From contig NZ_JAFGYF010000001.1 of the NCBI RefSeq assembly GCF_016921195.1, positions 124,001 through 188,000 on the forward strand: a stretch of DNA of 64,000 bases. Reading direction: 5' to 3'. Below the pieces are notes generated by a model that was not told where the DNA came from, made no database searches, and saw only the letters and a program-made list of their open reading frames with translations. Shown here in pieces: positions 41,224 through 50,085 of this stretch (position 1 is its first letter; each line of letters opens with the position of its first letter). A program made the translations under genes and the position numbers. The stretch comes from Cellulosimicrobium cellulans (GTDB lineage Bacteria > Actinomycetota > Actinomycetes > Actinomycetales > Cellulomonadaceae).

Positions 41224-42141
41224 ATGGCGACGGACCCACGCAGACTTGGTTTCCTCCTTGCCGTGCACCGCGGCGGGGGCATTCTCGCGGCAGCGGACCT
41301 TCTGCACGTCACCCCGTCCGCGGTCTCCCAGCAGATCCAGCGGCTCGAGGCCGAGGAGGGCGTCGTCGTGCTCGACCGCGGCCCGCGCGGCGTGACGCTC
41401 ACACCCGCCGGGCGCGTGCTCGCGGAGACGGCCGAGCGCATCGAGACCGAGCTCGTCGAGGCGCGCAAGGCGCTCGCGGCGCTGGGCGACGAGGTCAGCG
41501 GCCGCGTGGCGGTCGGCTCGTTCCAGACGGCGATCCGCGCTGTGGTCGCGCCCGTCGCCGGGCGTCTCGCGGAGACGGCGCCGGGCATCGAGCTCGACGT
41601 GCAGGAGCGCGAGCCCACCGAGGCGCTGCGCCTCCTGCGCGCGGGTGAGCTCGACGTCGTCCTCCTGGAGCGCGACTACGAGGCCGACTCCCCCGCCCCG
41701 CGCGGCACGCGCGAGATCGTGCTGCTCGACGAGCCGTGGCGCCTCGTCGTCCCCGCCGCCATGCCGACCCCGACCCGCCTCGACGACGTGCGCGACGCCG
41801 TCTGGCTCGGTCCCGAGCCGGGAACCGCTGCGGCGCGCGCCCTGCGGCGTCTTTCCCGCGGGCTCGGCGGGACCCTGCGCACGCGGCACAACTACTACGA
41901 CTTCGACGTCGCGCTGTCGCTCGTCGCGGCCGGGCTCGGCGTCGCGATGCTCCCGGCGCTCGCCGTGGAGGGCGGTGCGTCCGACGAGGTGCCCGACGGC
42001 GTGACGGTCGTCGGCCTGCCCGGCCTCGGCTCCCGGCGCCTCGTCGCGCGCCACCGCGCGACGCGCCACGAGCCCCGCCCGGTCGTGTCCGCAGTCCTCG
42101 ACGAGATGGTCGCCGCGGCGGCCGACATCGCCTTCGCCTGA
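41224..42141 (+). CDS. LysR-family transcriptional regulator
   Basis: 305 residues. The N-terminal winged HTH (about 5-65: FLLAVHRGGGILAAADLLHVTPSAVSQQIQRLE) and the two-lobed effector domain (about 90-300) are clear. The frame starts at ATG 41224, with TAGCAT exactly six bases upstream and no ribosome binding site, a textbook leaderless start. Divergent from the small membrane protein gene; target unknown. The gene ends where the 21-base repeat array begins. Confidence 0.93.
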   Translation: MATDPRRLGFLLAVHRGGGILAAADLLHVTPSAVSQQIQRLEAEEGVVVLDRGPRGVTLTPAGRVLAETAERIETELVEARKALAALGDEVSGRVAVGSFQTAIRAVVAPVAGRLAETAPGIELDVQEREPTEALRLLRAGELDVVLLERDYEADSPAPRGTREIVLLDEPWRLVVPAAMPTPTRLDDVRDAVWLGPEPGTAAARALRRLSRGLGGTLRTRHNYYDFDVALSLVAAGLGVAMLPALAVEGGASDEVPDGVTVVGLPGLGSRRLVARHRATRHEPRPVVSAVLDEMVAAAADIAFA

Positions 42142-42303
42142 CACCGAGGCACACCCGTGGTGTCGCGAGGTAGACCCGTGGTGGCGCGAGGTAGAACCGT
42201 GGTGGCGCGAGGTAGAACCGTGGTAGGCCGAGGTCGTCAACCACGGTTCTACCTCGGCAGACCACCGTTCTACCTCGGCGAACCAGGGGTTTCTCTCGGC
42301 GCG
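42141..42303. repeat. Inverted array of 21-base repeats between convergent genes
   Basis: Direct units with core GCGAGGTAGAACCGTGG start at 42161, 42182 and 42203, with a degenerate one before (42141-42160) and a broken one after (42224-42236). From 42241 the same unit runs inverted (core CCACGGTTCTACCTCGG) at 42241, 42262 and 42283. The period is exactly 21 in both arms, and the arms can pair into one long stem. It follows lysR and covers the last eleven codons of the flavin-oxidase gene. Confidence 0.9.
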
Positions 42304-42839
42304 AGGTCGAAGCGGGTGGCGCCGTAGGGCTCGGCCGTGCCGAACGCGAAGACACGCTCGGGGAGCAGGCGGTAGACGGCCCAGGGTGGCGGCCCGGCCG
42401 AGGGCGCGCTGAACTCCGCGGTGAGGGCGTCGCCGTCGACGGTCGCGGGCCACCCGTCGGCGCGGAAGCCCGCGGCGACGCGCTCGAGCGCCTCGGGGTC
42501 GGTGACGCGCTCCGCCCGGCCCTCGACGGTGAGGTCGAACGGCTCGGTCGCGACGGTGAGCGTGCACCGGGGGTCGCGGTGCAGGTTGCGGTTCTTGCGC
42601 GTGCCCTCGCCCGAGCACAGGTAGATCTCCTCGTCGAGCACGAGCGCGCCGAACGGCACGACGTGCGGCTTCCCGTCAGGGTCCGTCGTGGCGAGCCACG
42701 TCGTGTGCCGGTTCGGGCCGCCCGCACCGGGCTCCTGGGGGAGCCGGCCGAACAGCGTGTCGTGCACGCGCGCCCACTCGATCGGCGGCGTGCCGTATCC
42801 GTCGAGGTTCTTCACGTCGATGCGGTCGATGGCGTACAT
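42270..42839 (-). CDS. Pyridoxamine 5'-phosphate oxidase-like flavin/F420-binding protein
   Basis: 189 residues. Split-barrel fold shown by HTTWLATTDPDGKPHVVPFGALVLDEEIYLCSGEGTRKNRNLHRDPRCTLTV. This group binds FMN, F420 or haem and includes general-stress oxidoreductases; the cofactor cannot be fixed. AAGGTGAG precedes the ATG. The C-terminal residues ETPGSPR and the stop come from the neighbouring repeat array, so the original end was probably replaced. Confidence 0.85.
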   Translation of the reverse strand: MYAIDRIDVKNLDGYGTPPIEWARVHDTLFGRLPQEPGAGGPNRHTTWLATTDPDGKPHVVPFGALVLDEEIYLCSGEGTRKNRNLHRDPRCTLTVATEPFDLTVEGRAERVTDPEALERVAAGFRADGWPATVDGDALTAEFSAPSAGPPPWAVYRLLPERVFAFGTAEPYGATRFDLAPRETPGSPR

Positions 42840-47076: not shown

Positions 47077-50000
47077 GTGACCCAGCCGTCCTTCGACCCC
47101 AGCTCACGGCACAACGCCGCGACCGGCGCGTTCGCGCCGCGCCACCTCGGCCCGCGCGGGCGCGAGGTGGGCGCCATGCTCGACCAGCTCGGCTACGTTT
47201 CGCTCGACGCGCTCGTCGACGCGGCCGTCCCGGCGTCGATCCGCACCGACCGCCCTCTCGACCTCCCGGCGGCGCGCACCGAGACCGAGGTGCTGGACCA
47301 CCTGCGCGCGCTGGCCGCCAAGAACGTCGTCAAGACGCAGATGATCGGGCTCGGCTACTACGGCACCGTCACTCCCCCGGTGATCCGCCGCAACGTCCTC
47401 GAGTCCCCCGCCTGGTACACGGCGTACACCCCGTACCAGCCGGAGATCTCGCAGGGCCGTCTGGAGGCTCTCCTCAACTTCCAGCAGGTCGTCGAGGACC
47501 TCACGGGCCTGGACGTCGCGAACGCGTCGCTCCTCGACGAGGCCACTGCGGTCGCCGAGGCCGTCGCGCTCATGTGGCGCGCGTCGCGCGCGAAGAGCGG
47601 CTACGTGGTCCTCGACGCCGACCTCTTCCCGCAGACGCTCGCGGTCACGCTCGGTCGCGCGCACGCCGTCGGCCTGCCCGTCGTGGTCGCGGACCTGTCG
47701 GGTGGCCTGGAGGCCGGCCTCGCCGCGGCGCGTCTTGCGGGGGCCTTTCCCGCCGGGGTGGACGACGACGCGCAGCTCGTGGGCGTCGTCGTCCAGCAGT
47801 CGGGGGCGTCGGGGCGCGTCGTCGACTGGCGTCCGGTGGTCGCGGAGGCCAAGGACGCGGGCGCGCTCGTCACCGTGGCGAGCGACCTGCTGGCCCTGAC
47901 GCTGCTGGTCTCGCCCGGCGAGCTCGGCGCCGACGTGTCGGTGGGCTCTGCCCAGCGGTTCGGCGTCCCGCTGTTCTACGGCGGCCCGCACGCCGCGTTC
48001 ATGGCGGTGCGCAAGGGCCTCGAGCGCTCGCTGCCCGGCCGCCTCGTGGGCGTCTCGATCGACGCCGACGGCGACACCGCCTACCGCCTCGCGCTCCAGA
48101 CCCGCGAGCAGCACATCCGCCGCGAGAAGGCGACGAGCAACATCTGCACCGCGCAGGCGCTCCTCGCCATCGTGGCGTCGATGTACGCCGTCTACCACGG
48201 CCCCGACGGTCTCCGGGCGATCGCCGAGCGCACGCACGCGCACGCCACGACCGTCGCGGACTCCCTGCGCGCGGGCGGCGTCACCGTCGAGCACGACACC
48301 TTCTTCGACACCGTCCGCACCTTCGTCCCCGGCCGCGCGGACGCGGTCGTCGCCGCCGCGGCGGCCGCGGGGGTGAACCTGTACAACCCTGATGCCGACC
48401 ATGTACAGATCGCCTGCGACGAGACGACGACCTCCGCGACTCTCGCCACAGTGCTACAGGCCTTCGGCCTCACGGACCAGGCCTCTACCTCGTCGGACCA
48501 GGCCTCTACCTCGCGAGGTCGAGGCGTGGTCACGAGCGGTGGTGAGGCGGACGGCGCGGTCGCTTCGCTCGCCGGAACCGACCGTGGGCTCCCGACGTGG
48601 GCACGACGCGCGACGGAGTACCTCCAGCACCCGATCTTCCACCTGCACCGCTCCGAGACCTCGATGCTGCGCTACCTGCGCCGGCTCTCGGACAAGGACC
48701 TGGCGCTGGACCGGACGATGATCCCGCTGGGCTCGTGCACCATGAAGCTCAACGCCACGGCGGAGATAGAGGCGATCTCCTGGCCGGAGTTCGCGGACCT
48801 CCACCCGTTCGTGCCTGCTGACCAGGCGCTCGGCTACGCGGAGCTCATCGGCGGCCTGGAGTCCGCGCTGGCGGAGATCACGGGGTACGCGGGGGTCTCG
48901 GTGCAGCCGAACGCGGGGTCGCAGGGCGAGTTCGCGGGCCTGCTGGCGATCCGCGACTACCACGTGTCGCGCGGCGAGACCGAGCGCGACGTCTGCCTCA
49001 TCCCGGCGTCGGCGCACGGGACGAACGCGGCGTCGGCGGCTCTGGCGGGTCTGCGGGTCGACGTGGTGAGGACGGCCGAGAGCGGCGAGGTGGACCTCGA
49101 CGACCTGCGCGCCAAGCTCGCCGACCACGGTCCCCGGGTCGCCGCGATCATGATCACGTACCCGTCGACGCACGGCGTCTACGAGGAGCACGTGCGCGAG
49201 GTCTGCGACCTCGTACATGAAGCCGGTGGTCAGGTGTACATCGACGGCGCCAACCTCAACGCGCTCGTCGGCCTCGCGCGCCCGGGCGAGTTCGGCGGCG
49301 ACGTGTCGCACCTGAACCTGCACAAGACGTTCTGCATCCCGCACGGCGGGGGAGGGCCCGGCGTCGGCCCGGTCGCCGTCGCCGAGCACCTCGTCCCGTT
49401 CCTCCCCGGCGACCCGCTCGCGCCGGGAGCGGCCACCCCCGTCTCGGCGACGCGGTACGGCTCGGCCGGGATCCTGCCGATCTCGTACGCGTACGTCGCG
49501 CTCATGGGTCCGGACGGGCTGACGGAGGCGACGAAGACGGCGGTGCTCACGGCGAACTACGTCGCGAGCCGCCTCGCCGACCACTACCCGGTGCTGTACA
49601 CCGGGCCGAACGGCCTGGTCGCGCACGAGTGCATCCTCGACCTGCGCCCGATCACGGCCGAGACCGGCGTGACGGCGGAGGACGTCGCCAAGCGCCTCAT
49701 GGACTACGGGTTCCACGCGCCGACGCTGTCGTTCCCGGTCGCGGGCACGCTCATGGTCGAGCCGACCGAGAGCGAGGACCTGGCGGAGCTCGACCGGTTC
49801 GTCGACGCCCTCGTCGCGATCCGCGGCGAGATCGACGCCGTCGCGTCGGGCCGCTGGGCCGTCGAGGAGTCCCCGCTGCGCGGTGCGCCGCACACGGCGG
49901 CGGCGCTCGTCGCGGAGACGTGGGACAAGCCGTACTCGCGCGAGCTCGCGGCATACCCGGTCGCGAGCCTGCGGTCCGGCAAGTACTGGCCGCCGGTGCG

Positions 50001-50085
50001 CCGCATCGACGGCGCGCGGGGCGACCGCAACCTCGTGTGCTCGTGCCCGCCCCTGGAGTCCTACGTGACGGGAGACCTCGCATGA
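47077..50085 (+). CDS. gcvP: Glycine dehydrogenase (decarboxylating), P protein
   Basis: 1002 residues, full-length fused P1+P2 type. It decarboxylates glycine and passes the aminomethyl group to the H-protein lipoyl arm. The PLP lysine is Lys750 in [28 protein letters not shown] and [10 protein letters not shown] are other active-site segments of the C-terminal half. GTG 47077 with GGGAG seven bases upstream starts the protein after the riboswitch. Residues 466-486 ([13 protein letters not shown] region) are encoded by a palindromic repeat inserted in the junction between the two halves; the frame is kept. The stop overlaps gcvT (ATGA). Confidence 0.96.
48473..48533. repeat. In-frame palindromic repeat inside gcvP, 21-base period
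   Basis: Two direct units (core GGACCAGGCCTCTACCTCG) start at 48473 and 48494, 21 bases apart, and an inverted copy runs 48513-48533. On the minus strand the unit reads CGAGGTAGAGGCCTGGTC, clearly related to the CGAGGTAGAACCGTGG unit of the array at 42141-42303. Coding frame is not disturbed. Confidence 0.85.

Follow-up and report, generated by a model that had tools for sequence, protein, structure and literature searches.

The 19-codon insert in the interdomain linker of gcvP is very probably a coding copy of a lineage-specific dispersed repeat, according to the following explanation. Units of the repeat stack head to tail into arms, opposed arms can form hairpins, and the arrays so formed sit mostly after the 3' ends of genes. 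The sense unit carries TAG in one frame, often used as a stop codon, whereas the antisense unit is free of stops in every frame, so that copies inside genes would persist mainly when antisense, in the hydrophilic frame giving DQxSTSx heptads and where extra coil does little harm, as in interdomain linkers. In gcvP, one element would have entered the linker between the P1 and P2 halves before the divergence of a group of seven species, its unit number would afterwards have been altered in whole steps of seven codons, and it would have been lost in one of the seven.

The window analysed is a stretch of 64,000 nucleotides from the genome of a high-GC actinobacterium (4.58 Mb in 23 contigs, referred to as G000). 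The gene, whose start codon is GTG at 47077, and its insert are composed as follows:

47077..50085, plus strand: gcvP, glycine dehydrogenase (P-protein), 1002 aa, assigned from Pfam GDC-P and GcvP2_C, its open reading frame and solved homologues
48475..48531, plus strand: in-frame insert in the interdomain linker of gcvP, codons 467-485 (19 residues)
48476..48492, minus strand: repeat unit CGAGGTAGAGGCCTGGT, no mismatch, antisense to gcvP
48497..48513, minus strand: second repeat unit CGAGGTAGAGGCCTGGT, no mismatch, antisense to gcvP, 21 bp from the first
48514..48530, plus strand: repeat unit CGAGGTCGAGGCGTGGT, one mismatch, inverted, abutting the second minus unit

Two direct units 21 bases apart and one inverted unit had been proposed by an earlier sequence-only reading, and they were found at 48476-48530 with the architecture <<> (two antisense CGAGGTAGANNCNTGGT units and one sense), the DNA of the insert giving a hairpin on folding. 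The same reading had placed the insert at the junction of the two halves of the enzyme. In the solved homologue 1wyt, which we take to be the Thermus P-protein, these halves are two separate chains, and in the alignment subunit 1 corresponds to residues 29-432 and subunit 2 to residues 526-915, the insert lying between these stretches as proposed. In a predicted model of GcvP, residues 463-509 are without helix or strand and residues 470-501 have a pLDDT below 50, in a model of only moderate quality (mean pLDDT 68.6) where other regions are low too. The insert, which is presumably translated and may be neutral for the enzyme, is thus predicted to occupy coil between the P-protein halves.

The repeat units in gcvP are not a matter of chance. 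When one mismatch is allowed, CGAGGTAGANNCNTGGT occurs 433 times in the genome, on the plus strand in 203 cases and on the minus strand in 230, whereas the reversed pattern occurs once. The 317,435 fetched bases of G000 contain 164 units at up to two mismatches versus 0 for the reversed pattern, and 204 versus 17 at up to three, while the window itself gave 13 matches at up to three mismatches versus 4.9 +/- 2.3 in 100 shuffles (largest 11). Matches were present in all 17 genomes of the genus, own included, with totals from 2 to 441, the totals of 2 to 6 (G013, G003, G001, G015) being near the control counts of 0 to 2. In a family sample of 121 genomes, those outside the genus had 0 to 12 matches, except G026 (22) and G098 (88). 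The starts of G000 contigs C2, C3, C4, C5, C7 and C8 (first 434 bases) were often near or within repeat arrays, and copy number in draft genomes may therefore be undercounted.

The anatomy of the repeat was drawn from 20 stretches of G000 and 20 of G002 and G004, picked around listed units. The repeat consists of a 17-bp unit and a 4-bp spacer, stacked mostly head to tail at 21 bp. When 200 units were profiled, positions 1-3, 7-9 and 15-16 were constant at 96-99%, partly because the units were selected via the pattern, and positions 10 and 13 were variable (A/G and C/G). A plus unit followed by a minus unit was seen in 46 of the 75 clusters with an exact unit in the fetched loci of G000, G002 and G004. 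Base pairing between opposed arms was judged by eye only. A single unit has no real hairpin, and an opposed pair of units folds at -30.6 kcal/mol. Short elements frequently have a CATG loop and long elements a core of 123 to 615 bp between opposed arms, with two recurrent core kinds, A and B, discerned by eye (loci L150, L151, L165, L170, L176, L179). Core A has a long inverted repeat (GGGGTGGGTGGTGGTGCCGCGTC...), and relatives of core B also lie in frame within genes of low-copy species. A search with core A beyond the genus matched 73 of 297 genomes of the order, own included, at E <= 0.001, mostly with short pieces. The predicted folding of one core string is stronger than that of its shuffled versions (z = -3.4). 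As for known structured RNAs, 7 loci with long cores, all outside the window, gave 0 Rfam matches at gathering score.

Within the window, the pattern was claimed to be common to the gcvP insert and an intergenic array, and this array was indeed recovered, with 4 plus and 3 minus units at up to three mismatches, between two convergent genes:

41263..42141, plus strand: LysR-type regulator gene, ending 3 bp before the array
42145..42298, no strand assigned: intergenic array of four plus units, a 15-bp loop and three minus units, between convergent genes
42261..42277, minus strand: unit supplying the TAG stop of the minus-strand gene (gene end 42270)
42270..42839, minus strand: pyridoxamine-phosphate-oxidase-like gene, convergent on the array

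The whole array folds as one long hairpin. The minus-strand gene reads through a decayed first unit without TAG and stops in the second (offset -29 = -8 - 21). With gene calls made around the arrays by a purpose-written gene finder, 34 of the 47 intergenic arrays of G000, and 32 of the 43 of G002 and G004 taken together, were placed in sense behind the 3' end of a gene. The gene's own stop is a TAG within the first unit of the array in 8/34 and 9/32 of these cases, respectively (17/66 together), and since 21 is a multiple of three such TAGs recur in one frame along sense arrays. Convergent genes flank 31 of the 65 classified intergenic clusters of G000, G002 and G004, and 22 of 34 in G098, compared with a baseline of 46 convergent junctions among 258 gene junctions in the G000 loci. 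Intergenic copies may have a role as terminators or mRNA ends.

At the junction orthologous to that of the window array, the six genomes seen to retain both neighbour genes have 7, 4, 2, 2, 1 and 1 units (G000, G005, G004, G012, G006 and G007), and the four others shown (G002, G008, G009, G010) have no right-hand gene there and no units. The unit subtype at this junction (window array compared with L306, L307 and L314) is AACCG in G000 and G012 and AGGCC in G005 and G004, as if arrays had been replaced or converted. Gene conversion could mimic some of the spread of the repeat. Insertion by a mobile process, with entry by transposition, is the route that we would suppose. No transposase was found among four genes near arrays checked by Pfam:

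L140:5317-6312: gene between arrays, DUF2510
L154:5134-5568: gene between arrays, GNAT acetyltransferase
L140:4630-5232: gene beside an array, no family
L158:13511-14560: gene beside an array, aldo/keto reductase

A relative of the repeat was found in G098 (loci L210-L225 and L339-L354), where the unit is CGAGGTAGAACCCTGG, with a 16-bp period, no spacer and often opposed arms. This relative bears on the possibility that the unit is the binding site of a nucleoid or regulatory protein, with arrays spaced at two helical turns being bound and the coding copies as well. In its favour, a period of 21 bp comes close to two turns of the helix, G098 has the core motif at another period, and several positions are 96-99% constant, in part as a result of pattern-based picking. 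On the other hand, the 16 bp of G098 are not a whole number of turns, and an essential site fits poorly with a copy number of 2 to 441 within the genus and with array sizes that differ at the same site. A binding site is considered unlikely as the explanation.

Along contig C1 of G000, 5 of 20 clusters lie inside a gene, the hosts being gcvP, a heavy-metal P-type ATPase (copA-like), hemD, a short-chain dehydrogenase (SDR) fusion and an EamA transporter. For G004, where the first 2.16 Mb were covered, the figure is 4 of 24 clusters, excluding the stop-overlap loci L323 and L326; the hosts are gcvP and hemD again, a membrane protein and a xanthine-dehydrogenase-like fusion. The other 12 clusters fetched from G000 (C2, C4) and the 19 from G002 were all outside genes, though units are present in hemD of G002. 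At up to two mismatches, units occur in 11 of 16 parsed hemD orthologues and in 8 of 15 SDR orthologues, leaving out G013 (hemD and SDR unparsed) and G014, whose loci included no orthologue of the SDR gene.

All seven genes (five in G000 and two further in G004) have their stacked units in antisense orientation and share a single codon phase, reading mostly as DQxSTSx heptads, the hydrophilic frame; gcvP and hemD each have one added sense unit. A further match with three mismatches in another phase, at L335, looks like chance. All three antisense frames are open, the other two being TRPLPRR-like and the more hydrophobic PGLYLVG-like, and the sense unit has TAG in one frame. The chance of one frame across seven genes is 3^-7 = 4.6e-4 given equal frames, a value that triples when no particular frame is specified in advance. 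As for position in the proteins, the insert lies between Fer2_2 (110-170) and Ald_Xan_dh_C (241-356) in the xanthine-dehydrogenase-like fusion, after the HMA domain (88-146) in the ATPase and ahead of the SDR domain in the SDR fusion. In hemD it is within a single Pfam HEM4 match (39-279) and not between two models, and in the G004 membrane protein, which has no Pfam match, the units are near the C-terminus.

It had also been proposed that a period that is a multiple of three lets the element enter genes without breaking the frame. The frame of gcvP is indeed kept with 1-4 units, as a period divisible by three allows. That period decides entry into genes is only suggestive: copies inside genes were seen in 0 of 34 fetched G098 array loci (16 bp) versus 9 of 75 (21 bp; Fisher p = 0.055), in a comparison of one genome with three of another genus among the matches listed. 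When restricted to two census stretches, the counts are 9/44 versus 0/34 (p = 0.004), a figure that leaves out 12 G000 clusters (C2, C4) and 19 of G002.

Across species, the gcvP linker has one antisense unit in G004, two in G000 and G005, three in G006 and G007 and four in G014, each of these six carriers having one sense unit besides. These steps in unit number probably arose by tandem duplication and deletion. The segment had been expected to be absent from GcvP of most relatives, and its conservation across many genera would have spoken against an insertion. Of the 17 genus genomes, G000 among them, 6 have units in the gcvP linker and 11 have none. Beyond the genus, 105 GcvP loci were fetched and 0 of them contained a unit when one mismatch was allowed, all of which is in line with that expectation. 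The closest named GcvP relatives among the matches listed are from Krasilnikoviella (79% identity), Promicromonospora (77%) and an uncultured Cellulomonas (73%). In a tree built from the gcvP flanks with the linker removed, the six carriers and the insert-free G002 form one fork (support 91/95), and the same set with G012 has a support of 100/96; one gain and one loss is the simplest history, with G002 appearing to have lost the insert. The gcvP of G013 (G013:C7:85586-87042) gave a three-piece match and a very long branch, which may reflect a broken gene or a poor assembly (83% complete). No target-site duplication or clean empty site was found; the gcvP linker is too different between carriers and non-carriers.

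The codons of these units bear on whether selection has acted on the DQxSTS heptad at the protein level, the heptad being a flexible and hydrophilic module of linkers that would help the enzymes. This would account for the presence of the peptide in the same frame in seven unrelated proteins and for unit numbers that differ by 7-residue steps. However, the gcvP of 11 of 17 genus genomes is without heptads, that of G002 having apparently shed them. In addition, the Ser codon is TCT in 15 of 15 gcvP units, while TCT makes up 1% of Ser codons in the fetched genes, and the 10 constant codons of the first and last gcvP units show no synonymous change, compared with about 30% expected from the flanks; the test is a weak one on a small sample, with P about 0.03 when codons are treated as independent. 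The third codon of each of these units has changed its amino acid, and the spacer codon varies synonymously (CCA/CCG). The retention of TCT and the lack of synonymous change hint at DNA copying or homogenisation rather than protein selection, and we regard a selected linker as quite improbable.

Other repeats occupy the same place in GcvP. In G003, G009 and G013, an in-frame ASDAKGVEAA...GDGAASPSTE stands in the linker instead of the 21-bp repeat, and this stretch recurs in two other genes, the SDR gene in G003 and hemD in G011 (loci L129, L121, L130, L267, L249). Its DNA, which by eye has a likeness to core B, was searched for in 8 genus genomes, each of which gave between 2 and 21 matches, full or partial. 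In GcvP of Krasilnikoviella, Promicromonospora and three further family genomes (L009, L062, L097, L099, L101) there is a third stretch, ...VEGALAPVNA..., which is palindromic. A search of 8 genomes for it gave 1 to 5 matches in 5 genomes and no match in the remaining 3, one place in G022 being scored on both strands.

From these repeats a wider reading is offered tentatively, as one that is possible and rather less likely than not to be correct. The interdomain linkers of core enzymes in this family would be recurrent landing sites of several unrelated dispersed repeats. Their coding fate would be set by arithmetic, which asks for a period divisible by three, a strand free of stops and a frame that is hydrophilic. 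On this view the 21-bp repeat would be a genome-wide generator of one standard, length-adjustable DQxSTSx linker, which in the sense orientation would be a ladder of TAG every seven codons. Such a system would be a natural test case of how dispersed repeat DNA turns into protein, as copies of one repeat family within genes can be set against those outside them across 17 species, at sites whose unit number differs by 7-codon steps and beside a relative of 16-bp period. The period as the decider of gene entry becomes testable by counting.

Among the matches listed, the open-licence literature contained no paper on the 21-bp repeat in this group. The repeat could be a canonical GTAG REP family mobilised by a RAYT, as GTAG is in the unit and as the placement at 3' ends and between convergent genes, the use of TAG as stop and the intragenic copies are those described in the excerpts of PMC3733652. 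However, a REP unit is defined in PMC2817692 by an imperfect, GC-rich palindrome that comes after a GT(A/G)G head, and no internal palindrome of this type was found in six single units, which fold at only -0.9 to -4.9 kcal/mol compared with -16.3 for a published Stenotrophomonas REP. Furthermore, a profile search for the Y1 transposase (Y1_Tnp, PF01797) gave no match in any of the 17 genus genomes at E <= 0.001, with matches in 5 of 14 named genomes as control. Both results disfavour this origin, which is judged very improbable.

Finally, an ordinary low-complexity linker grown by local codon slippage, with only an accidental likeness to the array, would agree with the variable length of the linker across the family and has next to no probability, being ruled out by DNA identity with the genome-wide repeat (two exact matches to a motif with 433 genomic copies, control 1) and by an inverted unit, as at other loci.

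The dispersed repeat retained as the source of the gcvP insert resembles several known systems in part. The MIRU are actinobacterial tandem intergenic repeats with a variable number of units that overlap stop codons; their unit length and sequence differ from those of the 21-bp repeat, which has opposed arms of its own. The BOX elements of pneumococcus are modular, with a tandemly variable internal unit, and differ in their modules and host.

Closer likeness is seen with the GTAG REPs and BIMEs. GTAG REPs are, in the excerpts of Di Nocera et al. 2013 (PMC3733652), dispersed elements in opposite-orientation pairs near gene 3' ends or between convergent genes, which donate TAG stops, sometimes lie inside ORFs and are linked to a Y1 transposase. 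The 21-bp repeat is likewise of high copy, intergenic and near gene 3' ends, and like BIMEs it is a composite of oppositely oriented units; judged against those excerpts, it has in common with both the GTAG, the opposed pairing, the 3'-end placement, the donation of stops and the copies in ORFs. It is unlike the GTAG REPs described there in having no unit palindrome and no Y1 transposase found in 17 genomes, in its head-to-tail arrays of fixed period and in its actinobacterial host. The word Actinobacteria is absent from the main text of PMC3733652, but REPs are listed for three Actinomycetota species, all from other genera, in a 2025 survey (PMC12306157).

The likeness to Rickettsia palindromic elements (RPEs) suggested by the sequence-only reading holds for behaviour only, namely for the persistence of a dispersed repeat in frame inside seven unrelated genes. 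As outlined in PMC10969869 and PMC3733652, RPEs, which are about 150 bp, share with the 21-bp repeat a dispersed palindromic DNA in frame in unrelated genes at tolerated protein positions; the 21-bp coding period, the 7-codon steps and the use of one of three open antisense frames set the latter apart from them. Since neither the palindrome nor Y1 was found and the copies persist in frame as RPEs do, the 21-bp repeat is filed, by analogy, as a putative REP/BIME-like and RPE-like element in behaviour.
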